Below are positions 2,571 to 61,028 of a stretch of DNA of 64,000 nucleotides, piece after piece. The stretch is taken from positions 44,459,461 through 44,523,460 of the forward strand of contig NC_056005.1 in the NCBI RefSeq assembly GCF_018446385.1, written 5' to 3'. The DNA is from Zingiber officinale. Taxonomy: Eukaryota > Streptophyta > Magnoliopsida > Zingiberales > Zingiberaceae. The translations under genes and the position numbers were made by a program. How positions within the stretch are numbered: the first letter of the stretch is position 1; the number at the start of each line of letters is the position of its first letter. The notes below the pieces were generated by a model that was given only the letters and a program-made list of their open reading frames with translations, made no database searches and was not told where the DNA came from.

Positions 2571-3600
2571 TAATCAAATATATTTTAAAATTTTTTTATA
2601 ATCTAGTATAGCTAGTTTTGGATCCCTTCGGTCAAATAGTTATTTCTATTCCAAGATCCTTTCTTTTTCTTCTGCTGGGTGGATCGACAAGATCAATGGT
2701 TACTGGACTACGGGTTCTTTCTTCACTGCTTGATCAATGCTACAGGATGTTGGCATTAGTCTCACTGCTAGTGTTCTTTCACCGATGCAACTATTGATTC
2801 TACCTCAAACGAATTTATTCTTCTCCCGATTAATTTTGGAAGAAAATGGCCATGCTAATTTACCTATCGGATAAATTTAAAGTATAATTTATGTACTTTT
2901 ATAAAAGACTCTTATTAAAATTTGAATACTGATGCTTTTATTTATTCTCTTAAGGGCTTCGTATGCTTGTGTGTAATTTAGTGTATATTGAAGTTTGGGT
3001 GTTTTATCCTGCGATTTGTAACGTATTAATTACTATCATTTATTTATTTATTTATTATAATTTAAATATTTAATTTTTCAAAACGACTAATTTTTAAATG
3101 TCGATCCTATAAAATTTTTTTTATCAGCCATTAAAATAAATTAAAAATACTAATAAAGACACATTTAGATGGTCAGCCTTCTATCCTCTATTTAATATAG
3201 TATCACGCATTAACATTAACATGATTATAAGTTATTAAATGGATAGATTTTTTTTATCACTTTTGGATATCTAATAATTTATAACTCTACATTATACCAT
3301 TAATTGTTCTTGATAACGTATTAATACACATTAATTTTCTCTTTCCTTTATTTTTTATGATGTATATTCGGCGTTTTACTAAAAAAAGCACTCAGATTTC
3401 TAGAATTCTCAACAGGCACATCGGAAAGGCATACTTAATTAAAAAAATATCACCTTTCAGCCCTAAATTAAAATAAAAAAAAACTAATGTTCTTTATTTA
3501 AATCAAACCAAATTAAATCAAATCAAATTAAACCGAATTCAGAAAAAAAAAACTTAATTATTTTATCAAAGAATTTTATAACAAATTATAACCTAAATGA
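2571..3600. other. AT-rich spacer, nothing recognised
   Basis: AT-rich sequence with poly-A and poly-T runs (for example 3472-3484). No open frame, RNA gene or clear repeat was seen. Confidence 0.5.
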
Positions 3601-4995
3601 TGTGCATGGGTTATACGTGTGTTTAGATTTCTATTATTGCATATTTGTATGAATTTCTTGTTGATAATTTTTGACATCGCACTTCTCTTTATTATTATTG
3701 CTAGTATGACTACTTTCTTATTCGGAGATATGCTCTTTTTCTCTTTTCATTGATAGGGCACGATGAGAATCGAAATTGGATGAAGAACGCAAGGAAAATC
3801 ACATTCGAAAGCCAACCTTGGGTAGGCCGTGCCAAATGGCATGGCCGTGCCTCTCCCTTCTAGAGGTGCACATGGTCCGACTGTGCCAAAAGGCAACGTC
3901 GTGTGAGCTCTTATGCCGTGTGCATGGTCTGGTCGTGCCAAATGGCCTGGCCGTGTGAGGTTTGCGACCAGGGCACACGGTCCTAACCCTTTAAAAGGGA
4001 AACTCCTCCCTTTTTCTTGAGAAGGAAGTTTTCTCCTTTGGAGGAGACATATCGAGGAGCGGTCTTCTATTTGGAGAGTTCTTGGAGGTGATACGAGGTC
4101 GTTTCTATCATTGTCTGCATCCTAGAGCATTGGATTGAATCCAAAGACCCTGTCTCTCGCTTTGGCTAAGCATCTCTTTCCTCTCTCACTATTTGAATTG
4201 TAGAATGTTTATTCAAAATCTTTGTGTTTATCCTCTTTGTTTATGGAGTAGATTCCTCTTAGTCTATAACTATAAAAGTAGTTGTGATATGAATCGATGT
4301 AAAACTCTATGGATTTGTCTTTCATTTGTTTTAAGGACATGTTTATGCTTATTTCTTATTTGATGGAATGCATGTGTAAACTTTCTTGCTAATACATGTT
4401 GAATTAAATGGATGTATGGATTGGCCTCCACGTAGATAGAATACCTAAGATCATACGACCGGAGGTCCATTGGTGACAGAGGTTGAATCCGGATAAGAAA
4501 CACCTTAAATTCGAGCCTAAAGGGTTTTCCCAAATTCTATTGTGAGTAGGTGATTGGTGTAATTTGAACCGAATAGCTAGGGGTCTCTAGGTGACAAGGG
4601 TAACCGTTAGACTGGACTTCTTTAAGTTACCCATCTTGCTTGTTAGCATTCGACAACAATAGGAGAACACTAGTAATTATTTAGGATCTCTATTAGATAT
4701 AAACCTAGAGAATAAGGAATTGGCTATCCATATTGCATCGATAAGCATCACAATGAAACCTGAATCATAGAACTACCTTTTCAAATTAGACTTCCTCACA
4801 ACAATTCCTTCTGCTAATCTCTCTCTTAGAGTTTCACGTGATTTATAGTTCGAAGACCACCAATACTTTCATTAGTCTAGATAATTCATTGTGTGACATC
4901 TCTAGTGCTTGTTTCCCAGTCCTTATGGATCAATATTTTTTACCTGATGACTATTTCGTGCACTTATGGATTGACACAACACTAAAACAGTTTAA
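3600..4995 (+). mobile_element. Degenerate gypsy-type LTR
   Basis: The sequence runs through repeated 'gccgtgccaaatggc' phrases (3824-3955), a TTTAAAAGGG promoter-like stretch near 3991, a leader-like segment, and a closing segment (4900-4980) resembling the 3' end of plant gypsy LTRs. No primer site follows. Short open frames are not conserved. The assignment rests on style and should be treated as tentative. Confidence 0.4.
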
Positions 4996-5154
4996 TTTTT
5001 CAATAAATTACCAAACTCCTTAAGTAAATTTACTAAATATTCAAATCACATATCTAACTTTAAAAATTACTAAATCATGTACCATATATCCATTTTACCC
5101 CTCCGTATTTACAGGATAATTTTTTTAATAGATTTATTTAAAAAAAGGATTCAT

Positions 5155-6930
5155 ATTCAAAAAATCATTGTCATCAATATATTATGTCAAATTGATGTTT
5201 GAGAGTATGGACATAATTATGAGAACTAGACAAATACATAAGACCTGATTTCATGTCATTTCAAACTCTCTTTTAGGTCCATCAGCCGATTTTGGCCGAA
5301 ATCGATCAAAACTGACCAATGGACTTAAAGAGTTTGAAATGTTCATACCCTCAAATATGTTCATCTAATTCTCTTGATTATATTTATATCCTCAAATATC
5401 AATTTAACATAATATATTGAGAGAAGTAATTTTTTGAACATAAAATGAAATTAAAAAAAAAACAATCTATTAAAAAAACTCAACCTGAATAGATTACTAC
5501 AACAATCGATTCAAGACCGCGAATGAATAATAACCTGAATCATTACTATATTGTAGCAATCGATTAAAAAGTCTAATTTGAATTTAAAAAATCACTACTC
5601 TTAATGTAGTATGTCAATTTGATGTTTGAGATCATGGATATAATCAAAAGAACTAGGCGAGCACATAAGACATGATTTCATGTCATTCCGAGCTCTCTAA
5701 GTCCATTAGTCAATTTTGATTGATTTCGACCAAAATCGGCTGATGGACCTAGAGAGCTCGGAATGACATGAAATCAGGTTATATGTGTTCGTCTAGTTCT
5801 CTTGATAATATCTATACTCTCAAACATCAATTTGGTACACTATATCGAGAGTAATAATTTTTTTAACACGAATTAGATCATTTATGTTAAGAAAATTTTT
5901 GCTCTCGATATAGTTTGTCAAATTGATATTTGGGGGCATGAATATGATCATGAGAACTAGATGAATACATAGAATCTAATTCTATATCATTTCAAGCTCT
6001 CTAATTCCATCGGCCGATTTTAATCGATTTTGAGTAAAATTGGCAAATGGACCTAGAGAACTCAAAATGAATGGAACAAGATCCTATGTATTTGTCTAAT
6101 TCTCTTGATTATATTTATAACCTCAAATAATAATTTGGCATATTATACTGAGAGTAATAATTTTTTTAATATGAATGTATCTGAAAAATCTAATTCATGT
6201 TAAAAAAAGATCATTGCTCTTGATATAGTGTGTCAAATTGATGTTTGAGGATATGAATATAATCAGGAGAACTAGACAAATACATACAACCTAATTCCAT
6301 ATCATTCCATACATTTTAGGTCCATCAATCAATTTTTACTAAAAGCAATCAAACCGGATTATAGACTTAGAGAGCTCGAAATGACATAGAGTCAAGTCCT
6401 ATCTGCTCATCTAGTTCTTTTGATTATATCTATACTTTTAAACAGTAATTTGACACACTATATTAAGAGCAGTGATTTTTTGAATTCAAATAGAATTTTT
6501 TTTAATCAATTGCTATAGTATAACAATCGTTTCGAGTTACTGTTCATCCGTAAAGTATAATCTCGAATCGATTGTTACAGTATCAATTGCTACAATATAG
6601 CATCGATTCAGATTAAGTTTTTTTTTAATAGATTGTTTTTTTTAATTCTATTATTCAAAAAATCATTGTTCTTGATATATTATGTCAAATTGATGTTTGA
6701 GGGCATAAATATAATTAGGAAAACTAGACAAACATATATGACTTGATTCCATATTATTCCAAACTCTCAAGGTTCATTAGTTAGTTTTGATCGGTTTCGG
6801 CTAAAATCAGCTGATGAACCTAGAGAGTTCGAAATGATATAGAATCAAATCCTATGTGTTCATCTAGCTATCTTGATATTATTCATACTTTCAAACATTA
6901 ATTTGGTATAATATATTAAGAGTTAAATAT
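5155..6930. repeat. Five head-to-tail foldback (palindromic) elements
   Basis: Five related units of roughly 270-285 bp lie at about 5158-5437, 5585-5862, 5890-6163, 6205-6484 and 6655-6925. Each is an inverted repeat. The left arm reads ATCATTGCTCTTGATATAG, then GTCAAATTGATGTTTGAGG, then AGAACTAGACAAATACATA and TCATGTCATTCCGAGCTCTC. A short centre contains CGATTTTGGTCGAAATCG-like sequence. The right arm then repeats the left in reverse complement. Copy 2 is the best preserved: about 20 bp on either side of its centre pair almost perfectly (GAGCTCTCTAAGTCCAT with ATGGACCTAGAGAGCTC). Spacers of ~30-170 bp carry a recurring CAATCGATT motif. No coding capacity. Confidence 0.85.
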
Positions 6931-7101
6931 GAAACAATCTTTTTTAAAAAAATCTATCTATTTTTAAAAAATTACATGAATTGATTACTACACTATAGCA
7001 ATCAATTCGGTTAAATATGGAGGGTAGATTTGGTCATTTTAAAAGTTGGGTACGTGATTTAAATACTTAGAAAATTTATCTACAATAATTTGTCAAATTT
7101 T

Positions 7102-7104
<3 letters not shown>

Positions 7105-7192
<88 letters not shown>
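7105..7192. repeat. (TA)44 microsatellite
   Basis: An uninterrupted TA dinucleotide run of about 88 bp. Length may be unreliable in the assembly. Confidence 0.98.
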
Positions 7193-7741: not shown

Positions 7742-9160
7742 TCATCCACTACAATCAAAATGAACTATCTCTATGGTATTTCCTAAAGATTCATAAGAAA
7801 TATCAACCTTACCATCCTGAAAGATATCTGGAGGCTCTAGTATAGTGAATGTGACATCATCTTGATCAAATAAATGATCTGACTCTGAATCAGATAGTCG
7901 TACGATCGAAGGAAGTGATTCTTGAGTCGCCCCTACACTTCCATCGTCAAAAGGTACATCTACGGACTCAACTGGCTCAGCTGGTGGTGGAATAGTCAAA
8001 GGAAGTGACTCTTGGGTCTCCCCTACACTTCCATCATCAAAAGCAACGCCTGCAACACCAAGACTATCTAGAACAACAATATCATCTACAACAATATAAT
8101 CAGAATCAACTGCAACATCACTATACAAAATACTAGAAGAAGTATGTAGAGTAGCAGAATCAAAGTTAGGAATATCACAAACTCTACAATCCATCTCCTC
8201 GGAAGTCAATGCGGTAAGATGATCTGATTGTAACTGTAACTGTGTCAATGATTGTGTTCTTTCCTGGAATTGTGTTTCTTGATATTGTTCAAATTGTTGC
8301 AACTGCTCCCTAAAATGCTGCTCAGACTGATGCTGAAGATATGACTGATAATGTTGAGACCACTCAGAATTCCCTTGTTGTATGCTCCCATACCCGAATC
8401 CTGCAACGAAATTATACCTGTCCTGCTGATGGATCTGATAAGACTGAGGATCAGGCTGAACATACTGGATCCTGGTAGGGAGTACACTGGCAAAGGAATG
8501 AACATCCTCGGTAATCGTCGGTCTAGTCCCATATTGCTGATAATTTGTAGCCATAATCTCGATAAGTTTTTTAGCCTGAGTAGATGTCTTGTTAACTAGA
8601 ACTCCTCCACTAGCTGCATCAACCATACTCCTGTCCATGGGAAGCAATCCCTCATAGAAGTATATAATCAGTAGTTGATCGCTTATCTGGTGCTGAGGGC
8701 AACTAGCAACAAGTTCTTTAAATCTTTCCCAATAATCTTGAAACGGTTCTCCTGTGAATTGTTGGATTCCACAAATACTCCTCTGAATAGCTGCAATCCT
8801 AGAAGCAGGAAAGAACCTCGCCAGAAATAATCTTTTCATCTCGAGCCAGCTGGTAATAGAGTTGGGTGGGTGACAGTACAACCAATCTTTTGCTGAATCC
8901 GCCAATGAGAATGGAAATACTCTAAGTCTGATATCTTCACCTGATACGCCATGTGGATTCCATGAAGAGCATACTGTATCCAATTCATGTAGATGTCTGT
9001 TGGGATCTTCACCAGATAGTCCATGAAATTTCGGTAATAAATGTACAATTTTCCATAACTCGAAGTCTGCGTCCAAATCAGAATGATGAATGCAAAAAGA
9101 ATCCTCTGACAAATCTGGTGCCCAAAGATCTCTCAGAGTCTTTTCAGTGTTGTTCTCCAT
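7742..9160 (-). CDS. Ty3/gypsy gag (Retrotrans_gag), 472 aa, intact
   Basis: One uninterrupted frame. I chose the ATG at 9160 (M-E-N-N-T-E-K) because it starts the conserved part; an in-frame upstream extension to 9238 is possible. Residues ~45-240 form a retrotransposon gag domain: F-H-G-L-S-G-E-D-P-N-R-H-L near the start, then a W-L-Y motif, F-L-A-R-F-F-P and F-K-E-L-V-A-S-C-P, ending with K-T-S-T-Q-A-K-K-L-I-E-I-M-A. The middle is very glutamine-rich (about residues 260-350). The tail is acidic and repeats D-D-G-S-V-G-x-T-Q-E-S-L-P twice. No CCHC zinc knuckle is visible. Gag would form the virus-like particle of the element in the cytoplasm. It is not a host gene. Confidence 0.85.
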   Translation of the reverse strand: MENNTEKTLRDLWAPDLSEDSFCIHHSDLDADFELWKIVHLLPKFHGLSGEDPNRHLHELDTVCSSWNPHGVSGEDIRLRVFPFSLADSAKDWLYCHPPNSITSWLEMKRLFLARFFPASRIAAIQRSICGIQQFTGEPFQDYWERFKELVASCPQHQISDQLLIIYFYEGLLPMDRSMVDAASGGVLVNKTSTQAKKLIEIMATNYQQYGTRPTITEDVHSFASVLPTRIQYVQPDPQSYQIHQQDRYNFVAGFGYGSIQQGNSEWSQHYQSYLQHQSEQHFREQLQQFEQYQETQFQERTQSLTQLQLQSDHLTALTSEEMDCRVCDIPNFDSATLHTSSSILYSDVAVDSDYIVVDDIVVLDSLGVAGVAFDDGSVGETQESLPLTIPPPAEPVESVDVPFDDGSVGATQESLPSIVRLSDSESDHLFDQDDVTFTILEPPDIFQDGKVDISYESLGNTIEIVHFDCSG

Positions 9161-9625
9161 ATTACTTAACATATTTGAAGTCCTGAACACACTGAAACTG
9201 ATTACATAAAAGAAATTCCCTGGTCTAACCTGAAACACTCATGCAAATATAATCAAAAGACACAGGAAAATATACAAGATAGCATACATACATACAAGCA
9301 ATGAATAATAAAGCCCTAACAACATTTTTGAATTTTTACAACCACCAAAGAAATAGAAATGAGAGAGAATAAAATAAAAAAAAAATGAAATGCAAAATAT
9401 AGAAAAATTAAAACGGTGACCTAAATGATGAAATTGACCAAAATAGGTCTTTATTCACGACATACTGTAGTATTACTTCTCTCACTCCTTTCCTTCAACA
9501 TGCAAAGTTCCAGAGCAAAAGGAGATACTAACAGTTAAGTCTAAAGAAAAATAAAATAACAAAGTAGAAAAACAAGAACAAGATAAAATTATATACAGTC
9601 TAAAAACAAATGAACATCACTAGTT

Positions 9626-13175: not shown

Positions 13176-15608
13176 TGTTAGAGTGTATACTGAAAGCCTA
13201 AGCTTTTGTAAATATTTATTTTGAATAAAGAATCACATTTGGTCAAATTATCTACATTTATTTGTAGTTGTTCAATTAATTTATATTGTAGATAACATAG
13301 TATGTGGTGTCACATACAGAAGATAATGTTATCAGTACCTTATAAATTATAAACAGTAGCTCACGACCAAGATGGAAAGGAACAAACCATTGGAAGGTCG
13401 TAGTGTAATTGGGTATTAGTTTATCTTAATTATATAATTACACTAGTACACTTAGAGTGCATTGAGTAGGATCATTAGAGGTCGTTTCTTTTATACTGAC
13501 TTTATAAAGGAATAAAGATCTCGGTTATTATGGAAGTGTGTGCTCTTAATCCTAATATAATAATAAACACATATATTTGAAATTTATTTCTTTAATTTAT
13601 CAATGGGTGAGATTTAGTTTGATAAATCAATAAGCCCGATGAGTTAGGAAATGATATCACTTATAGTGTGTGTTGTTGATTATAAAAGGAAACTGTGTCC
13701 TAAAAATCTAGGTTGAGAATGTCCCCAAGAGGAGCTCATAAGGATTGTCATGTTAAACCCTGCAGGTGGACTTAGTCCAACATGATGACAAGGTTGAGTG
13801 GTACTACTCTTGGACTAAGATATTAATTAAGTGAGTTGTCAGTAACTCATTTAATTAGTGGACATTCATTATCTTAAACACAGGGAGACTAACATACTCA
13901 TAATAAGAAGGAGCCCAAAAATATAATTTGGGATTGGTGCGATAGTTCAATAATAGTTCTCTAGTAGAATGAATTATTATTGATAAAATTAAGTTGTGTG
14001 TTCAGGGCGAACACGGGATGCTTAATTTTATCAGGAGACCAAAACCAATTCCTCCTCTTGGTCTCTATCGTAGCCTCTTAATTATAGAGTACTATATTCA
14101 CCTATACCCACTTTCGTACCCATCTAAAAGGGGCCGGCCAAGCCTTGCTTGGAGCCCAAGCAAGGGGCCGGCCAAACCATGTTTAGATAAAATGATGGTG
14201 GCCGACCCAAGCATGGGTTCAATCTATGTGTGGTCGGCCATTACAAATAGAAAAGGAATTTTAATTTTAAATTTTTTCTTATGTGGAATACATGATTTAA
14301 AAGATAGTTTAAAAATTAAAATATTTCCTTTTATAAGATTCTACAAAAGATTAATAGAAGAGTTAAATCTCTTTCCTTATTTGTAGATTAAAATGTTGAT
14401 TTTAATTTTGGTAAAAACTTTCCTTATTTATAAATCATCCACATGTTGAAAAGATAAATTTTAAAATTATAGAAATTTCCTTTTATAACATCAACCATGA
14501 AGGGATTATTAAAGAAAAATTTTATTTTAAAATTTTTCCGGAAGCAAATTAGGAAGCTTTAATTTTTCTAGCGAAAAATTTCCTTATTTGCTTGTTTTGA
14601 TGTGGCCGACCATATGCATTAAGAAAAGGAAGTTTTATTTAATTCTTCCTTATTAGTTCATGTCAAGGAAAGTTAAGAAAATTTAATTGTAATTAAATTT
14701 CCTTATTTTCCAAAGCTAAGGATTATACAAGAGGGGGTTGGGGTGCCTTCATTAGACACAACCTCTATTCTATTCTCTCCCTCTTTTCTTCCTTGGTGTG
14801 GCTGGCCTCTTCCTTTTCTCTTCTCTCCATCTTTGTGGCCGAACCTCCTCTTCCTCTTGGAGATCAAGTGGTGGCCGGATCCTAGCTTGGAGAAGAAGAA
14901 GAGGAAGCTTACATCCCTTGGAGCTTGGTTGGTGGAAAAGGTTCTTCATCCTTAGGAGGTTTTGTGCTTGGCCGAAACTTGAAGGAAGAAGAAGAAGGTG
15001 CTAGGTGGTTCTCGTCTCAGAAGATCGTTGCCCACACAACATCCGAGATTAGAAGAGGAATACGGTAAAAGATCAAGAGGTCATTATCTTCAAAGAAAGG
15101 TATAACTAATAATTGTTTTCCGCATCATGTTAGTTTTGTTTCTTTGTAAAAATGTCAAATACAAGAGGCATGCGATTCTAATTTTTCGAATTAGTTTTCA
15201 AAGTTGTGTTCTTTTGTTTTTTTTTCTTTTCTTTGTGATTTGATTGTTCTTAGTGGTTAACCTAGGGTTACTATGGGAAAGTTAAATATTTAATTTCCTT
15301 AAAAGGCTTTGTCTAGTCGGTGGTGGTTGCTCCTATATCCAAGAAGGCCAAGTGCCTCGCCATGCAGTACTGGAAGCCAATTTTAGAAATAGATATTTAA
15401 TTGTCTTCGTGACCTAGGTGATTTGGATCGAACGTGTTAAGTTCTGCAGAAGATCCAAGTCTAAACCTAAAAGAGATCAAACGTGTTAAGTTCCGCAGAC
15501 GATCCAAGTTTAATTTAAAAGAACACATGGTAGCTAGGAAAAAGTTTAGACCTTTGTACAAAATTTTTGTACAGTAGAACCATTAGGCTTTTCGAGTAGC
15601 AACCAACA
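13176..15608 (+). mobile_element. Solo LTR, family B, 2433 bp, 5-bp target duplication
   Basis: Begins TGTTAGAGTG and ends AACCAACA (TG...CA). It is flanked by exact CTAGG duplications at 13171-13175 and 15609-15613. No internal retrotransposon genes lie inside, and sequence on both outer sides belongs to the same ~285-bp repeat, so it is a solo LTR left by recombination. CGGCCGACC-like motifs and CT-rich stretches occur around 14130-14830; open frames there are not conserved. Family assignment (copia versus gypsy) cannot be made from the LTR alone. Confidence 0.92.
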
Positions 15609-25609: not shown

Positions 25610-28600
25610 CAGGGACGGATCTTCCTTAGGGCTATACTGGGCTATAGCCCAGCCTTGTTGCCCAGCCCAAAATTTATTTTTATTGGTATATAACATTTGG
25701 CTTTCTGGCTTCCTGCATACGAGTTGGCTATCGGCGAATCAAGGAATCGGGGAATCGGCAAGGTATCATCGCAACAGCGAAATCAAAACTCAGAAGGAAG
25801 AGTCGGCACCATTATCGACAGAAGAAAGGTTAGTATTTTCTCTATTTTCGTTCTTATAGTAATTAGTTTTTAAATCGATTGTTGCACTAGTTTTCTTCTT
25901 GATTATTTCTGAATTTCTGGATTTCTTGATTTCTTTTATTATTTGGTTTTCTTCTTGATTATTTCTGGATTTCTAGATTCTTGATTTCTTCTATTAGATT
26001 ATATGTCAAGTTGTGAACTTGTGATGTTTCTAGTTTCTACCATATGAATTGCTTACCTGGATTTCAGAATGGTTGCTGACTTGCTGTGCTTTTAGATTTT
26101 TGATTTCCCACTTCTAGTTGTTTGATTATTGATGAACTTAAAATTTTTGAGCTCAGACATTGTGTGATTTGTGAAATAACTCAATGCTTGTATGGATGCA
26201 GCTCTGAGAATGAAATTGATGCCCCAATTCTCATGTTCAGTAGCTTATGATTGTTACTACGAGACAATTCTAAAATGGATGCCCTTTATTTCTTTGTAAA
26301 AGTGCTTGTTAATATCTTGCAGCACCACATCTCAATGGGTATGGGTTTAACTCATATTTATTTGGTCTAAGTTGCTTTGTCTATTGAGCAATGGGCTTTG
26401 TGTAGAACTTGATTCTTGCAATTTGCATCTTTGACAAAGTAGCTTTATCATGTCGGATCAATGATTCTTATCTCATTATAGATTAAGGTTATTATGAACT
26501 TTGAGATTTCATATTGAAGTAAGATTGAAAGTTAAAGCATTTAGAAGATATTTGTTGAAGTTAAAGCATTGAAAGTTATGAACTTTTAACTTTGCTGCAC
26601 ACGGATTATGCAAGACAAGCATATCATTTATAGTTAATGTCCAAGTTGAAGTTCAATCTAATAGTGATTTGGTCAAATTGGTTTCATCCAAATAAACTAA
26701 CAATTAACATAATTGCTTATTTGCTTAGGTTATGAGAATGTTCTTTTATTGTATTTGCTTTGGTTAACTAACACATATCATATGCATATTATCTTATATG
26801 ACTGCTCGAGTTCATTTGGGAAATTTTTCTGAATGGAACTACAGATTACTTAAGATTTGGCTTCTTCTATAAGTGTTATAATTCCTTGAATGTTTTCTTC
26901 TTCAATAAATAACACTCTTAGAATGTCCATATGAAACACTGTTTATTCATTGTTACTTTTACTTGTTTATTTATTCTATTGTTATTTCATTTTTTATTTA
27001 GGGATATAACTTGAACTATTTTAAAATGGAACATCAATCTGCTACAAAGAAAGGAAAGACGATAGCCTCGTATTTTAAGAAAAGAGATCGTCAAACTAGT
27101 GAAAGCACTTCAATTCCCACTGTCCCTATAATGCAACATCAATCTTGTGAAAGTCTTCCAATTCTTAGTGTCCAAATTCCTTCAATTTCCTCTTTTAGCG
27201 ACAATCATCAGTTATGCTCTAGTTGTATTGAACGAGATCCAGGAAAAAGAAAACAGATATGTGAATATCATATTAATGTACGAGATGAGATAAGACGCTC
27301 ATATCTAAAGATGGGGCCTTATCAACTAGATATGTTGGAGTATCCGGCTACAAAATTTGGAAGTTAAAATCGTCGATTTAAAAAAAAATGGTTCCAGAAA
27401 TTTCATTGGTTGGAATATTCACCTTCAACAAATAAGGCATATTGCTTTTATTGTTTTCTTTTCCTGAATGATGTTAATTCGTCTAATATCTCGGCATTGG
27501 TCAATGAAGGATTTGACAATTGGAAAAGGGTAAATCAAGGAAAAACATGTGCATTTCTTGCCCATATTGGTTCTGCAGCTTCTTCGCCTCATACTATGTG
27601 CGAGAGAACGGCTGAAAATTTGATGAGACCCTCACAACATATTGATAATGTCATGCATGCCCAATCTAAAGAGGAAAAAGAAAAAAATCGTTTGCGTTTG
27701 AGGACCTCAATTGTCACTGTTCGCTGGCTAGCACTTCAAGGGTGTGCCTTTAGAGGTAGTGATGAATCTCTATCTTCATCTAATCGTGGGAATTTTCTTG
27801 AATTAGTAAAGGCTTTTGCAAAAATGAGTACAGAAATTGATAAAGTTGTACTTGAGAATGCTCCAAAAAATGCTCAATATATCGCTCCAGAAATTCAGAA
27901 AGAGATTTTACATATTATGGCTAATAGAGTACGAAAGATGGTTCGTGAAGAAGTTGGTGATAAATATTTTTGTATTCTTGTTGATGAAGCATGAGATATA
28001 TCTAAACGAGAGCAAATGGCCATTATCTTGAGATTTGTGAATAATTATGGGGTTTTGACAGAAAGATTTTTTGCCATCAAAAGTATTAACGATACTACCT
28101 CATTGAACCTGAAAAAAGAAATATCAAATGTTCTTGTTCATCATGACCTACAAGTTAAGAAAATCAGAGGCTAAGGATATGATGGTGCTAGTAATATGCG
28201 TGGCGCATGGAATGAACTTCAGGCATTATTTCTCAGAGATTGTCCCTATGCATACTATGTCCATTGTTTTGCCCATCGATTACAACTCACATTGGTTTCT
28301 GCAGCCAAGGATGTTAGTGTTATTTGAGAGTTCTTTTCTCATTTGGATAATATAGTAAATATTGTTACTTCTTCTACTAAACGCATTGCTGAGTTACATA
28401 CTGCACAGAGAATTGAAATCGAGCATATGTTGGCAATTGGAGAACGTAATTCTGGAAGTGGGGCCAATCAAATTGGTAATTTACAGCGAGCGGGAACTAC
28501 TCGTTGGAGTTCTCACTATGACTCAGTAAAAAGCTTGATAGGTATGTATGCTGCAACTTGCAAAATTTTTGAAGTTCTTAGTGATCATTCTCCAAATGGA

Positions 28601-29586
28601 AGAGCTAAGGCTCAAGTTCGGGGGATTTATAGAAACATGGCAAGCTTTGAATTTGTGTTCATTTTGCATTTAATGCATAAAATTATGAGAACAACAGATT
28701 CTCTTTATCAAATTCTTCAAAGAAAATCTCAAGATATTTTATCTGCTATTACATTTATCTCTACTACCAAAACTATCCTCCAAGAACTTAGAGAATGCGG
28801 GTGGGAAGATTTTCTTCATGAAGTGAAAGTTTTTGTACGAGAAATGAAATTGATGTGCCTGATCTTGATTGTTTATATAAGATTGGTCGTTCCCGTCAGC
28901 AAACTACAGTTGAGCATCATTACCACTTTGATATTTTTAATGCAGCAATAGATTTCATCTTGATGGAGTTAAATACTCGATTTAATGAGTCATCAGTGAA
29001 ACTTCTTTCTCTTAGTACCGCTTTAGATCCTAAAAATTCATTTGAATCAATTAACATTGATGATATTTGCAAGCTTGCAATGAAGTTTTATCATGAAGAT
29101 TTCACAAATCAAGACATTATTGCTTTGAAGTATGAATTGGTACATTATAAACTTGATGTGATACAAAACTTGAAGGCTTCTACACTTGTTGATTTATGTC
29201 AGCAATTGACTGAGAGTGGACGATCAAAGATTTATGTTATGTTGACTAGATTGATTCATCTAGTTTTGACGTTATCTGTTTCTACTGCCACTACTGAGCG
29301 AGCCTTTTCAGCAATGAAGAATGTGAAGATAGCACTTCACAATAAAATGGAGGATGAATTTCTTGAAGATTGTTTGACAATTTATATTGAACGAGATTTA
29401 ACTAAGGATATAGATGTAGATTCTATTATAGATGAATTTTATGTTTCAAAATCTCGTAGAGCACAACTTTGTTGAATAAAATGATGTAATGACTTTTTTT
29501 TGTTATACATCTATTTTTTATAATAATATATAATTTATTACATTAATTTTAAGCCCCCCTAACTCGAATTCTTGAATCCGTCCCCG
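25610..29586 (+). mobile_element. hAT DNA transposon, 3977 bp, 8-bp target duplication
   Basis: Terminal inverted repeats are CAGGGACGGAT (left) and ATCCGTCCCCG (right), 10 of 11 matching. Both sides carry an exact 8-bp duplication TTAAGATG (25602-25609 and 29587-29594), diagnostic of hAT. It sits inside the LINE pseudogene. The transposase frame occupies 27026-29475; the region before it probably holds an untranslated first exon and an intron (a GAAAG|GTTAGT junction near 25828 and a TTTATTTAG|GG junction near 27000 fit). Confidence 0.95.
27026..29475 (+). pseudogene. hAT transposase (TTF-type zinc finger / DUF4371 / hAT dimerisation), decayed
   Basis: The ATG at 27026 begins a frame of about 815 codons that once encoded a full transposase. 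In order: a basic N-terminus (K-K-G-K-T-I-A-S-Y-F), a TTF-type zinc-finger region (Y-C-F-Y-C-F-L-F near 27432-27455), a DUF4371/RNase-H-like core (near 27700-28400, including G-Y-D-G-A-S-N-M at 28178-28201), and the hAT C-terminal dimerisation motif (S-T-A-T-T-E-R-A-F-S-A-M-K near 29281-29319). Four in-frame stops at 27365, 27992, 28172 and 28325, and an apparent 1-base loss in a T-run near 28832, disable it. Transposase would bind the terminal repeats and cut and paste the element. Plant proteins of this kind are often mis-annotated as zinc finger MYM-type proteins. Confidence 0.93.
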
Positions 29587-43239: not shown

Positions 43240-43768
43240 TGCCATGACCCCGGATAAATACGAGCTATTTGTGAACGCCAAGGCACATGCCTTGTCCCTA
43301 AAACAAGTCATTGATTCTTACCTGCACCGGGGCATCCATGGCCTCGTTAGAAGAGCTTCCTGTATTTGAGAAAAGATCCAAGCAAAAATAGTTGTTTGAG
43401 TTCCCTCGAGTATTTTTCCGAACGCCCGTTGAGGGTTGAGGTAAAATCGAACGGTCACAAGCCTCCTCGACTGAGAATTCACCCTAAAGGGACCCGAGGT
43501 GAGGCAAGGCTCCTATTGCTAGGGAATCACCTGAACAACCCAATGTCCCTTTCTCTCAAGAGGTATTAGATGAAAAGTTGTCTAAGCATTTCCGACCTTT
43601 GTCGGTTGGAGAGTATGGAGACAACACCGATCTTGAAGATCACCTCCGAAGATTCAAGAACGCCACTCTACTGCATTAGTATAGCGATGCAATAAAATGT
43701 CAAGTGTTTTTTACCACTCTATCAAGCTCGGTACAGAGATGGTTCGACTAACTGTCGGTCGAATTTAT
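43240..43768 (+). pseudogene. Ty3/gypsy gag fragment, cut by a copia LTR
   Basis: Frames are broken, but 43568-43768 encodes a recognisable gag segment: V-G-E-Y-G-D-N-T-D-L-E-D-H-L, then F-K-N-A-T-L-L-H, then Y-S-D-A-I-K-C-Q-V-F-F-T-T-L, then W-F-D. It stops exactly where LTR-A begins at 43769. Gag would form the element particle; this copy is dead. Confidence 0.8.
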
Positions 43769-45070
43769 TGGTGCAGTTTGTACTAACGGTCTAACTTAGA
43801 TTTTGATGAATGACAAGTAACTTAAGTTAGATTTTGTTGTGATCTAACCACTTGATTAAGTGTGCAAGAGAAGTCCAGATAGGTCAATGGATTAACCGGA
43901 TATCTGGCAAGAAATCCAGCTAGGTCAACGGGCCAACCAGATAGTTGGTATGAAGTCCAGATATGTCGACAGGCTGACCGAATATCTGGCAAGAATTCAG
44001 CTAGGTCAACGAGCCGACCGAATAGCTTGTATGAAGTCTAGACAAGTCGACGGGCTGACCGGATGTCTGGCAAGTTGGTAAGTTAAAGTAAGTCATTGAG
44101 GAGAGTGATCTTGTGAGGACGCATCTCGGTTGAGAGACAGTAGGCATTGGTCCAGTTTAGGTCCATTTAGGATCCCTAAACTGAGACCTTGACTAGTTCC
44201 TGGTCCTAGGAGAACGGGAACTAATTACTATTCTTTATTATTAATTATTATTGTCCTAACATTTGTTTTGCAGATTATTTGGACTAACATTGTTTTGCAG
44301 GACAAAAGGAGCATATTTGCCTTCGGATGAACAGTGCCCGAAGGTGCCTTCAAGTAGTGAAGGCGCCTTCATACTGTTTATAGAAGACGCCTTCTATGGC
44401 TATGGAAGACGCCTTCCATAGGGTGAAATTTTGACCTCGCCGTGGATAAGTATCGGGTTGTTTGAGATCAAGTTTAACTTATTGGAGGCGCCTTCAACAA
44501 CTATGGAAGGCACCTTCCATGCCTTATATAAGGCAGTCTCGAAAAGGCATTCAAATAACACTGATATACGAGCTACCGCGCATCCTTTTAAGCTTCCGAC
44601 TACCCCAGGCTTCTGCTACGACTCTGCTACGAAGCTGCTGCACCTGACAACTGCTCTGAGGACTTCCGATCACGGCCGGTAGACCAACACTGACACACGA
44701 GTGCTCCTACTTTTATTTCTAAAAGTGTCGGTAACATTTCATTTGTATATTTGATTACTGCAAAAGGACAAGTGCAGTGTGTTGCACTTGTTTGAACTTT
44801 CTTTGTACTCGATTTCGTCTTCCGGATGTATCGGAAGAGGTCTTTAGTGGTTTACCCATTGATAAGTCTGCAGGACTTATGTCTTGGAGTAGGAGTCGTC
44901 GAAGGTTTCAAACCAAGTAAACTGCTTGTATCTTTCACATGTCTTTTTAATTTTGATTTCATACGTACTTTCCACTGTGCATACTTGTGATTTTAAAAAT
45001 GACAAAATGAATTTTTGAAAACCACGTGATTCACCCCCCCCCCCTCCCCTCATGTGTGATCGATACAACA
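43769..45070 (+). mobile_element. LTR family A, intact 5' LTR of a copia element, 1302 bp
   Basis: Begins TGGTGCAGTTTG and ends GATCGATACAACA (TG...CA), followed 2 bp later by a copia primer-binding site. It contains several GAAGGCGCCTTC-like palindromes (44339-44420, 44485-44515) and a C-run (45032-45043). Sibling copies lie at 7414/11385, 20098 and 59745. Confidence 0.88.
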
Positions 45071-47160: not shown

Positions 47161-49236
47161 TTGACCCCAAGAGGAGCTCATAAGAATTGTCATGGTAAAC
47201 CCTACAGGTGGACTTAGTCCGACATGACGATAAGGTTGAGTGGTTCTACTCTTGGACTAAGATATTAATTAAGTAAGTTGTCAGTAACTCATTTAATTAG
47301 TGGACAATCATTATCTTAAACACAGAGAGACTAACACACTCATAATAAGAAGGAGCCCAAAATGTAATTTGGGATTGGTGCGGTAGTTAAATAATAATTT
47401 TTTAGTGGTATGAATTATTATTGATGAAGTTAAGTTGTGTGTTCGGGGCGAACACGGGAAGCTTAATTTCATCGGGAGACCAAAACCAATTCCTCCTCTG
47501 GGTCCCTATCGTAGCCTCTTGTATATAGAGATTCATACCCACCTATACCCACCTTTCTATCCACCTTAAAGTGGCCGGCCAAGCTAGCTTGGAGCCCAAG
47601 CTAGGGTCGGCCAAAGCTATTGGTGGAGCCAATTATAAGTGGCCGGTCAAAGCTTGGGTCCCAAGCTTAGGTGGCCGACCACTAGAAAATAAAAAAGAAT
47701 TTTTATTAAAATTATTTCTTATGTGGATATCATGGTTTTAAAAGAGAGTTTGAAATTTAAATCTTTCCTTTTATATCTTTCTACAAAAGATTAAGAAAAG
47801 ATTTGAAATCTTTCCTTATTTATAGATTGAAAGGTGGATTTTAATTTTAAGAAAACTTTCCTTTTTTAACCATGTTCATGATTTAAACAAGAGTTTAAAA
47901 ATTAAATATCTCTTTTATAAGTTTCTACAAAAGATTAAGAAAAGATTTGATATCTTTCCTTATTTATAGATTGAAAGAAGATTTTAATTTTTAGAGATAA
48001 CTTTCTTTTTGAAAATTATCCACATGTTTAAAAGAATGATTTTAATTTATAAAATTTCCTTTTTATCCACCATGAAGGGAAAAATTATTAGAGAAATTTT
48101 TTATAAATTTTTGGAAACAAATTAGGAAGTTTTAATTCTTGTGTTAATTAAAACTCTCCTTATTTTGGGGATTAAAGTGGCCGGCCATTAAAATTGTGAA
48201 AAGGATTTTAATTTTTAATTAATTAAATTTTCCTTTTCATGGCAAAGTAATAAGGAAGTTTTTATTTAAATTTTCCTTATTTGCCAAGACCAAGGATTAT
48301 AAAAGAGGGGGTAGAGGTGCCTTCATGGGTGCGAACTCTATTCTTTTCTTCCTCTCTTTTTCTCCTTGGTGTGGCCGACCCTAGATGTTTTGCCTCTCCT
48401 CTTCTCTTCTTCTTTAGTGGCCGGTGTTATCTTCTCTTGGAGCTCTTGATGGTGGTCAGTTCTAGCTAGGAGAAGGAGAGAAAGGAGGTTTTGTTTCTTG
48501 TATCCCTTGGAGCTTGGTGGTGGTGGTCGGACCTCTACTTCTCTTGGAGAACTGTGGTGGCCGAATCTTGCTTGGAGAAGAAGGTGGCTTAGGTGGATTC
48601 TCATTTCGGTAGATCGTTGTCCACACAACATCCGGGATAAAAAGAGGAATACGGTAGAAGATCAAGAGATTATTTGTTTACAAAGAAAGGTATAACTAGT
48701 AATTATTTTTCGCATCATACTAGTTTTCTTTGTATAGTTATTTTTGGAAATACCAAACACAAGAGACATATGATTCTAGAGTTTTCGGATTTGTTTTAAA
48801 GTTGTGTTTCTTTTATTTTATTTTTCGAATTTGTGATTCGATTGTTCTTTTTGGTAACCTAGAGTTATTTAAGAAAATTAAATATTAGCTTTCTTTAAAA
48901 GGCTTTGTCTAGGCGGTGGTGGTTGCTCCCATATCCAAGAAGGTCATGTGCCTCGCCATGCAGTTCTGGAAGCCAATTTTGGAAATTAATATTTAATGAA
49001 ATTAATAACATAGGTGGATTTGGATCAATAGTGTTAAGTTTCGCTTGTGATCCAAATCTAAACCATCAAGAACAGATAAGTTAAATTTGGAATCAATGAT
49101 GTTAAGTTCCGTTTGTGATTCCTAATTTAACTTCTAAAGAACACAATAGGTTATTTAAGGAAAGGTTCGACACTTGTATAAAATTTTTGTACAGTGGAAC
49201 CGGTACGTTTTTCCTAGGACTAACCAATAGGGAATC
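47161..49236 (+). mobile_element. LTR family B, 5'-truncated copy
   Basis: Matches the solo LTR at 13176-15608 from about its base 545 onwards: CCCCAAGAGGAGCTCATAAG, CTTAGTCC, TTGGGATTGGTGCG, GGCGAACACGGGA, CGTAGCCTCTT and the GTCCACACAACATCCG leader. It ends CCTAGGACTAACCAATA like the fragment at 1557. Open frames inside are not conserved. Confidence 0.85.
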
Positions 49237-52225: not shown

Positions 52226-54095
52226 CCAACTTCACTCCACTCTAGGAGCTTATCTCAACTTACCCGCTAAACAATCTGGTCATCCAGACTTATTTGGACT
52301 TTATTTTCTCAACATATGATCAACCTGCTAGGACTTCTTGATTTGATCTTTGGTCCTCCTAACTTATTGAATCCACCTTGCCAAATGTTTAGTCTACCTG
52401 ACCCATTTGACTTTCTGTCTGGTTCCCACCATTTGCCGAGACTTTCGTTGCCTACTATCTAGTCTACCTGACTTAGGACTTTCTAAGTTTGCATCCTACA
52501 ATCTTGATTAATTCATTAGATCACAACAAGATTTAACTTGAATAATTAACAACATCAAAATATAGGTTTGATTATGGTGCTCCCTACACCAATACACCAT
52601 TCCTGCCCCATCGCCTTTGATTTGGACATAGGTCATTTTCTCTGAGAAGATGTCTTCGCGGTTAAGAATTTTTTTTTTTTTGGCTTTAGATGGGTAAAAT
52701 GGGAATTTAGACCAGGGCAGGCTACGCAATTTGGGCATTTCCAAAATGCCTATACAATGTGGGGAAAACGTAAAACTAACTACGCACTTTGGTAAATCGC
52801 CATTTTTTGTAAGATAATGGAAAAGAATAAGGTCCACACGATAAAAGATTTGCATGATCTTATTTTTGGGTCAACTCTTCGGATTTCATAAAGATCTCGT
52901 TAGTTATGGTTCTAATGGATAGAGCCATAAATGACTCTCTTTTTAATATTTTAAATTTATTTTTAATTATGTATGTTATTTTATAAGATCTACTATGAAT
53001 TAGAAAATTTTTAACCATATAATGTAAAATAAAATTGCTAATTTTTTCCCCTTTTCCAACTCCCACTCTCTATACTTCTCTCATTCGTTGAGATTGCAAA
53101 AGAAAAATCACATCTAACACTAGCATGATCTGGTTGGTGTTAACTATGCTCCATGCTTGATTCAGTTCAAATGTTGCACTTGTTCGTGTTGTCAAATCAA
53201 AATAGAGGATTTTATTAGCAATAAAGAGTCATATATTTCTACCATTTTACTTCCTTGATAGACAATAATTTAACTTTTATTTAGATATATTTATAGTCAT
53301 AAATTTCTTGATTTTTCTTTTGTCTTTATTATATCATTTACAATTGTTCTGATTTAAATGATAAAAAATATGATTTTTTTTTGTGCTTAAAAAAAACTCA
53401 TTAAATTATTGATATATAATATTTGATTTAGTTTGGCTCCAATTTTCATTTTTTAGGGATTATATTAAGTTTTATCATTTTGTACCAATATTTTTTATTT
53501 ATTTATTTTTTTGTGTTTAAGGAATAATGATGATTGGAGCATAATTCTTTTTGCCACGTTATTTCCTTAATTTTATTCCTGTTAGACATAATTTTATTTT
53601 TTTTATTTTAAAATAATTTTAAATACACTTGCTTATATTAAATTATGTTTCAAAAAATAAATAATTTAATAATTTTATTAATAAAAAAATCATTATCAAA
53701 ATTTAAATATACAAAATTAATTAATAATTTTACCTCTTACAAAAAGTAAAAATAAATAAATTTTATATAAAAAATACCTTTTAAAATTTGTATTTTAATT
53801 TATTTTTTAAAAAAAATAAACTCAGCCTTGCATAATGAAAAAGGATGATAAATTTTTTTGTAAATAATGTGCCTAAATTTAGTTTCGCCTAAGGCATCTT
53901 GAGCTGGCCTAAATTTAGGACTGTTTCCATTGAACAAACGAACAGAAAAGTATTCTAAAAGGCAAAAAACCAAAGACTCCCTAGCCTCATCACTAGAACC
54001 TATGAGCTACCATAATATTACAAGAAAACAAAGTATGAAGGAATTATTGATCTCCAAATCGATCTCCTCTCGTCAAATGATATTTCTTGTACCGC
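52226..54095. other. AT-rich spacer and BiP 3' flank
   Basis: 52226-52500 has phrases like CCTACCTGACCC and GGTCATCCAGAC that resemble LTR-A internal motifs (60580-60830). 52500-53900 is AT-rich with no gene. The last ~150 bp before 54096 should be the BiP 3' untranslated region. Confidence 0.4.
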
Positions 54096-59744: not shown

Positions 59745-60927
59745 TGTTGGATCGATGAATTCACTAGAGGGGGTGAATAACGATTAAAAAATATCGTAAA
59801 AATTCGAGTCAAGTGCACAACGAAAGAATAAAATGATCAATGCTAACAAGAGTTGTTTTACTTGGTTCGGAGTCTTTGTCGACTCCTACTCTAAGGCCCG
59901 TACTCGTTGAATGCTTTCGTTAGGCAATTTACTAGCAATTCGAAAAGATGATTACACAATTTAAATTATAGGAATGCTAATAATTAAACAATACCGACAA
60001 TAATAAGGAAAAGAAAAATAGTACTTGTCGGAGAAGCCTCGCAGCGTTGCAGGAGCACAGCACAGAAGAGCAAGCTTTGGAAGGTCTTGTTTTGAGATGA
60101 TTCTTTGCTCCAGGGTGCATCCTTCTTATATAGGAGGCTCCGAGCGCTCGAATTCCTTCCGGGCGCCTGGAGTGTGACGTAGCTCGTCCAAACATGAAGC
60201 TCCACGTGGTGACGTGGCGAGGGGATAAAGTTTGCATCCCGGGCACTCGAATCCCTTCCAGGCTCCCGGATCCCTTCCGAGCGCCCGGATCCCTTCCAGG
60301 CGCACAGACCTCTGTTTTCCAGCGACCTGAACGAAAACGTTAGTCCAAGGCAAAATGCAAACTACCCTGCAAAATAAAGTGTTAGCACAGTTTTAAAAGG
60401 AATAGTACAATTATAATAGTAATAAAAGCAGTAATTAGATTTTGTCTCGTCGAGATCGGAATCTAATCACGATCTCAACTTAGATTTCCGAAATGGATCT
60501 AAGTTGGATCGAGGCCTAATGTTCCCTTCCCAGGAACGCGTCTTCACAGTCACTCCCCTCCAGTGACTTACCTTAACCTACCTGCCAGACGTTCGGTCAG
60601 CCCTTCGACCCGTCTGGACTTCGTGCTAGCTATCAAGTCAGCCAATCGACCTAGCTGGACTTCGTGGCAAACATCTGGTCAACCCATCAACCAGTCTGGG
60701 CTTCGTGCAGCTATCAGGTCGACCCGTTGGCCTAGCTGGACTTCGTGTTAGACATCTGGTCAGCCCGACGACCAATCTAGGCTTCGTGCCAACTATCAGG
60801 TTGTCCCGTTGACCTAGTTGGACTTTTCCTGCATACTTCGTCAAAGTGTTAGATCAATATGAAACTGACTTAACTTACTTTGTCATTTATCAAAATTTGA
60901 GTTAGACCGTTAGTACTAACCGCACCA
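59745..60927 (-). mobile_element. LTR family A, 3' LTR of a minus-strand copia element, 1183 bp
   Basis: Its ends are TGTTGGATCG (left) and CCGCACCA (right), the reverse complement of LTR-A. On its right, the minus strand has the polypurine tract AAAAAGGGGAGATTAT (60928-60943), marking it as a 3' LTR whose internal part runs rightwards. Inside are repeated phrases such as GGACTTCGTG and GGGCGCCTGGA (60150-60310, 60610-60830). Confidence 0.85.
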
Positions 60928-61028
60928 ATAATCTCCCCTTTTTGATGCAATGACAACCTGAGTTAAGTTAGTGAACAAATATGTAAGTAAAATAAGTAAT
61001 TATAAGGTTTTTAAGTTAGGCTTGTTTT
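60928..61028 (-). mobile_element. Copia internal remnant with polypurine tract
   Basis: Polypurine tract followed by about 85 bp (TGATGCAATGACAACCTGAGTTAAGTTAG) typical of the region before a copia 3' LTR. It is cut near 61028, where a different LTR-like sequence starts. Confidence 0.7.

Follow-up and report, generated by a model that had tools for sequence, protein, structure and literature searches.

In foldback elements of plants, such as Tnr8 of rice, FARE of Arabidopsis and SoFT of tomato, the inverted repeats are long and composite and contain tandem repeats. In Drosophila, the foldback elements Galileo and Tetris have long inverted repeats with tandem subrepeats (~210 bp and ~220 bp) in variable number, and these subrepeats have been proposed as additional transposase binding sites (PMC3573991, PMC4079207). 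The coral CMITE arrays consist of whole miniature inverted-repeat transposable elements (MITEs) standing in tandem, with highly similar units (PMC2872659), and the SaTar arrays of unrelated elements joined at microsatellites (PMC5907723). Here, an array of five palindromic units (U1 to U5) and the larger element enclosing it are described from a 64,000-nucleotide stretch of the genome of ginger, Zingiber officinale (contig NC_056005.1; C20:44459461-44523460), hereafter called the window. The haplotype-resolved ginger assembly amounts to 3.1 Gb, with 11 chromosome pairs (PMC8342452); the assembly searched here comprises 3.09 Gb in 211 contigs.

The array is enclosed in a larger inverted repeat of ~2.1 kb, at about 5003-7093 of the window, so that a palindrome is built of palindromes; aligned with its own reverse complement, the segment 5025-7078 shows 72% identity over 2146 columns. 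The anatomy comprises terminal inverted repeats (TIRs) of ~100 bp, subterminal segments that often hold a TACTRTAGCAATCGATT-like motif, and usually ~3-5 palindromic units of ~280 bp, mostly 31-37 bp apart. With a probability of roughly 0.85, the window element is an old, immobile copy of a dispersed family of non-autonomous foldback-type DNA transposons. Its parts, and the microsatellite beside it, are as follows (no strand is assigned where none is given).

5003..5102, + strand: left terminal inverted repeat, tip at ~5003; TIR profile match 5004-5102, E 9.4e-17; pairs with the right end
5103..5159: left subterminal segment, at 54 bp shorter than the right one at 101 bp; motif not found here
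5160..5440: palindromic unit U1; arm identity 71%, fold z-score -11.7
5441..5582: spacer 1, long type, 142 bp; holds the motif twice (5495-5511, 5549-5565); reverse-complement match to spacer 4
5583..5868: palindromic unit U2, the best-kept hairpin; arm identity 81%, fold z-score -24.0
5869..5884: spacer 2, short type, 16 bp; mirror partner of spacer 3 (a weak test)
5885..6171: palindromic unit U3, holding the axis of the whole element; arm identity 76%, fold z-score -17.6
6172..6204: spacer 3, short type, 33 bp; mirror partner of spacer 2
6205..6485: palindromic unit U4; arm identity 68%, fold z-score -12.7
6486..6656: spacer 4, long type, 171 bp; motif copies at 6504-6520, 6516-6532 and 6566-6582
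6657..6930: palindromic unit U5; arm identity 70%, fold z-score -14.3
6931..7024: right subterminal segment; motif at 6991-7007
7025..7093, - strand: right terminal inverted repeat; TIR profile match 7093-7025, E 2.1e-11
7105..7192: (TA)44 microsatellite, starting ~12 bp from the right end of the element

An earlier note on this DNA had reported five related palindromes of ~280 bp lying head to tail, and this description is borne out by the coordinates of the units (5160-6930), by the pairwise alignment of the arms, which are complementary in all five (68-81% identity), by the identities between units (73-79% in direct and 71-80% in reverse orientation) and by the RNA folding. For each unit, none of 200 dinucleotide shuffles folded as well; since all five fold better than every shuffle, a chance origin of the palindromes is excluded. 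The spacers, which the same note had called short and sharing a motif, are not uniformly short (142, 16, 33 and 171 bp), and the motif is present in spacers 1 and 4 in a relaxed form and absent from spacers 2 and 3. The exact sequence CAATCGATT has just two occurrences, at 5503 and 5557 within spacer 1, while the relaxed 17-bp form TACTATAGCAATCGATT, allowing up to 3 mismatches, has six copies in the 64-kb window (0.29 expected), all in or beside the array: two in spacer 1, three in spacer 4 and one to the right of U5.

Because an array of palindromic units is trivially palindromic, the decisive mirror test lies in the segments outside the units. As reverse complements, the left and right ends scored 93, against 48 for the best of 100 shuffles, and spacers 1 and 4 scored 115 (shuffle maximum 54); the match between spacers 2 and 3 (50, shuffle maximum 35) is weak, as unit edges were included (5855-5900 vs 6158-6220). 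The direct-orientation scores for the three pairs were 38, 36 and 40, with shuffle maxima of 48, 33 and 31. A second mirror test gave 85 for the ends (maximum of 300 shuffles, 45) and 112 for spacers 1 and 4 (42). The mirror partner was the top-scoring match for every segment compared, but other pairs also exceeded their shuffles. Spacer 1 matched the right end at 59 in direct and 42 in reverse orientation, spacer 4 matched it at 61 in reverse, and self-comparison of spacer 4 and of the right end gave 66 in each case; these matches are put down to shared motif copies. Since the outer TIRs pair and the spacers best match their mirror partners, the five units are to be regarded as parts of one element and not as five elements. 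A tree built from the ten arms of the window was poorly supported: by the approximately unbiased test (p-AU), the mirror topology (0.449) and a left-against-right topology (0.080) were not rejected and an own-hairpin topology was weakly rejected (0.041), and the program warned of too few replicates. The mirror pairing of the arms ranked second among 120 pairings.

A genome-wide search with U2, which the earlier note had proposed, returned 4006 first-look candidates; the best 40 of these were scored and gave 248 matches, revealing many dispersed relatives. Besides the window, 24 places (designated by L numbers) were analysed: 20 with ~3 kb on each side, and four more (L026, L027, L029 and L030) as returned by the search. 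Arms and their strands were marked in these loci with a profile of one arm. In 22 of the 24 places the arms add up to at least 2.5 units, the exceptions being L042 (1.4) and L047 (1.8), with an overall range of 1.4-5.4; three or more full units were found in 14 places, two in 7 and one in 3. Multi-unit copies may be over-represented here, because a single query unit was used and the 40 scored candidates were the top-ranking ones among 4006. The arms mostly alternate as palindromes with loops of mostly 5-10 bp, the spacers usually measure 31-37 bp, with some of 80-180 bp, and the period is ~315 bp. At least one TIR-like end was detected in 21 of the 24 places (none at L029, L033 and L050), and both TIRs in six (L031, L037, L040, L044, L047 and L049) as well as in the window; 30 of 33 TIR matches near arrays lie in the expected orientation, and similarity between flanks is lost just beyond a tip reading roughly RYAAATTACCRAACCAC. 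Outside the plant, the unit pattern had no match in viral contigs and none in prokaryote contigs.

Across 25 loci, alleles included, the motif was present in 18 of the 30 subterminal segments and 12 of the 17 long spacers and was missing from all 67 short spacers, 63 loops and 205 arms. The motif picked out by the earlier reader is a family-wide module, and it may be a putative protein binding site by analogy with the subterminal repeats of other DNA transposons. The long spacers resemble subterminal segments left within the array, so that fusion of shorter elements may have given rise to the one in the window.

These data bear directly on the earlier picture of five foldback MITEs side by side, each mobile in its own right and inserted beside or into one another. 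It would explain why every unit is a full palindrome and why two spacers hold end-like motif copies, and modular MITE-like arrays are known from guayule and rice (PMC5907723); the elements that meet at microsatellites in SaTar arrays are, however, unrelated to one another. Set against this are the regular spacing of ~31-37 bp at many loci, the mirror-matched spacers, the position of the TIR matches, nearly always at the outer array edges and not between units, and the presence of several units at nearly every fetched locus, which together leave the proposal highly improbable. Five independent MITEs are rejected by the mirror-matched spacers and the outer TIRs, and the idea is largely refuted: the units belong to one larger TIR-bounded transposon, of which multi-unit copies are usual among the fetched places. 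The note had named, as an outcome that would speak against its view, that the units were parts of one ordinary large transposon. One larger transposon with TIRs was indeed found, though not an ordinary-looking one.

The ages of the units and of their dispersal were approached through the arms. Mean arm identity was 75.3% within a locus and 74.5% between loci (114 arms; the alleles L031, L039, L041 and L049 were omitted from the 114-arm counts and arms <115 bp from the identity comparison, alleles being retained in the TIR, motif and unit counts). Since divergence between units is almost as great inside one locus as between loci, the array predates the dispersal of the family. A recent local duplication is thereby rejected, in agreement with the earlier statement that the array is not a recent simple duplication. 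The same values weigh on the proposal of a young satellite, that is, a local tandem amplification that is palindromic by chance. The near-constant ~315-bp period in many loci would suit it, and Tetris demonstrates that satellites can be seeded by foldback subrepeats (PMC4079207). On the other hand, the arrays are short (1.4-5.4 units' worth per place in these best-scoring places, and not long and open-ended), a TIR-like end stands on at least one side in 21 of 24 places, and the units of one locus are hardly more alike than those of different loci, so that a satellite origin appears highly improbable.

The window copy has its allele among these relatives, namely L031 on C19: the flanks are 94% identical from window position 3044 on, and the element is present with five units. 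Comparison of the two copies gave 96.5% identity for the element and 97.1% for the left flank, the ratios of transitions to transversions being 57:15 and 33:23, respectively. The insertion is therefore older than the split of both copies. Further allele-like pairs, judged by arm identity, are L032/L039, L037/L049 and L040/L041. In L031 the TA run (about 4067-4290) has ~19 repeats and lies ~185 bp past the right end of the element; because of this distance, the contact of the run with the element in the window is probably secondary. Targeting of a TA microsatellite is rejected at the window locus, the run being on the right side only and ~185 bp off in the allele, in this one locus.

With regard to folding, the lowest-energy structure of the whole strand (-871.5 kcal/mol) is one hairpin of ~1 kb, in which U1 pairs with U5 and U2 with U4, with U3 folding alone; this takes the place of the series of five separate hairpins foreseen in the earlier note, the element restricted to local hairpins reaching -707.4 kcal/mol. 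Such very strong predicted folding would be expected of a functional hairpin RNA locus under selection, be it an inverted-repeat small interfering RNA locus or a MIR-like precursor. The decay of the sequence is compatible with it as well: compared with the consensus of the 114 arms, the rates were 0.278 for C>T, 0.275 for G>A, 0.048 for T>C and 0.052 for A>G, and the C-to-T change by context (H, any base other than G) was 0.303 in CG, 0.369 in CHG and 0.251 in CHH, the last of which fits dense methylation, for example RNA-directed. However, G.T and A.C mismatches are equal (61 vs 57 in the five hairpins, 71 vs 76 over the whole palindrome), and since G.T do not exceed A.C there is no sign of pairing kept on one RNA strand; an RNA structure under selection is rejected by this lack of strand bias. 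Moreover, the TIRs are as decayed as the units (27 rows; C>T 0.294, G>A 0.264, CHH 0.294), the window has no match in Rfam, and the longest perfect stem is only 9-27 bp per unit. All in all, a selected RNA locus is highly improbable, and the small-RNA source suggested in the earlier note gains no support from the fold or the mismatches. C-to-T decay is shared by TIRs and hairpin units, and a decay specific to the units is rejected; the TIRs are also higher in T>C (0.114) and in transversions (0.077-0.091). A control non-palindromic repeat from the same loci showed a milder bias (C>T 0.072, G>A 0.062, transversions 0.021-0.030; weak evidence from 9 pieces of mixed age). Transition-to-transversion ratios of other window repeats range from ~0.5 to >6, and since they reach values above 6, the decay of the element is not unique.

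Several observations count against the reading of the window element as a copy of a foldback-type DNA transposon family. Only 7 of 25 places, the window included, yielded both TIRs; three of the 33 TIR matches are wrong-way (one each in L032, L035 and L039); in L037, L047 and L049 one TIR lies ~1.8-2 kb off the array; and the left TIR matches of L037 (E 1.2e-03) and L049 (9.6e-06) are weak. The TIR profile was itself trained on matches beside the same arrays, and its match counts come from these loci and the window. In direct orientation, too, spacers 1/4 and 2/3 slightly beat their shuffles (36 vs 33 and 40 vs 31). Translations of the additional 1.8-2.0 kb within L037 and L047, read by eye, showed no transposase or autonomous partner. 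Direct repeats at the ends are indistinguishable from chance, as 68% of 200 random site pairs match over at least 8 bp with at most 1 mismatch; the target-site duplication of the Mutator superfamily (Mutator-like elements, MULEs) is 8-11 bp. Finally, the nearest arm lay in the same locus for 23 of 114 arms, with 6.5 expected and a maximum of 15 in 1000 label shuffles, which is consistent with some local copying or conversion having also occurred.

For the foldback transposon so understood, the following course of events can be proposed. A transposase made elsewhere would have bound the TIRs and moved the whole multi-unit element in trans, and the subterminal motif copies possibly helped its binding. 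The units would have been passengers that arose by copying inside a palindrome before the family spread. The copies would then have been silenced, with a decay that is chiefly C-to-T, as expected of methylated repeats; an RNA product would be unnecessary to this account. The longest stop-to-stop frame fully within the element is 61 amino acids. A bolder version, which is tentative and on balance unlikely, would see in the family a distinct plant foldback clade whose mobile body is a palindrome of complete palindromic units and is self-complementary at any unit number. Its arrays might grow and shrink by hairpin-driven copying with the foldback shape kept, each insertion being a source of long-hairpin RNA and a target of silencing.

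Some further features of the window and of the fetched loci may be recorded. No frame of at least 130 amino acids occurs between 2.6 and 7.7 kb of the window; shortly past the element, 7742-9238 (- strand) holds a retrotransposon gag frame of 498 amino acids. A broken hAT-type transposase gene lies at 27368-29475 (+ strand); its DUF4371 and a hAT C-terminal dimerisation region fall into different frames. Two arrays of 41/81-bp repeats, at 43869-44074 and 60595-60825, stand in opposite orientation within an inverted match (43765-44258 / 60403-60931, 68.6%). A dispersed non-palindromic repeat at 13176-15606 and 47162-49227 adjoins the unit arrays of two places (L042, L045) and is present in L043 and L033 as well. 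At 52692-52800 (- strand) there is a lone TIR-profile match (E 8.5e-05), without unit arms or a second TIR match nearby, perhaps a related element with a different interior. In L032 (3310-4520) and L039 (3430-4540), the two alleles, a 1.2-kb stretch of tandem subrepeats separates the array from an extra half unit, and L048 has a self-complementary stretch of ~1 kb (66%) outside the array, at 4684-5732.

Among the described classes, the ginger family stands with the foldback elements: long inverted repeats form most of the element (72% self-complementarity over 5025-7078, and a half-to-half alignment), tandem subrepeats lie within them (unit plus spacer period ~315 bp), and dispersed copies share their ends, as judged with the TIR profile trained on these loci. 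MITEs are under about 800 bp in size. The ginger element, at ~2.1 kb, is longer, and resembles them in being non-coding, in having TIRs and in its high copy number, the latter taken from the first-look candidates, the best 40 of 4006 having been scored. As for the plant foldback elements named at the outset, 280-bp palindromic units are not known to occur in Tnr8, FARE or SoFT and may set the ginger family apart from them. Among the matches listed in the literature searched, mostly without subscription papers, there was no plant foldback family with palindromic units, and this large foldback family is apparently undescribed in that literature; as key plant foldback papers lie outside it, the family may have been described under another name. 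A puzzling array thereby becomes a recognisable kind of object, a large foldback family at many loci of the genome, which annotators can mask by its TIR, its subterminal motif and its unit. While the finding alone does not demonstrate a new mechanism, it offers a natural case for how palindromic subrepeats multiply within transposons.

The likeness to SaTar and to MuTAnT, both microsatellite-targeting MULEs, consists in non-autonomous TIR elements and in the position of the window copy near (TA)44 (PMC5907723, PMC4486113). In contrast to these, the ginger units are related to each other, and flanking by a targeted microsatellite was not found at the one locus considered: the TA run is not established as a target, because in the allele it stands ~185 bp from the end of the element. 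With the coral CMITE arrays the family shares full MITE-like elements in tandem; the ginger units, however, diverge from one another by ~25%, are enclosed by outer TIRs and have no boundaries of their own. Alike in architecture are Galileo and Tetris, with which the ginger family has in common inverted repeats holding tandem subrepeats, and from which it differs in that its subrepeats are complete palindromes, that it has no separate middle domain and no transposase link, and that it belongs to another kingdom.
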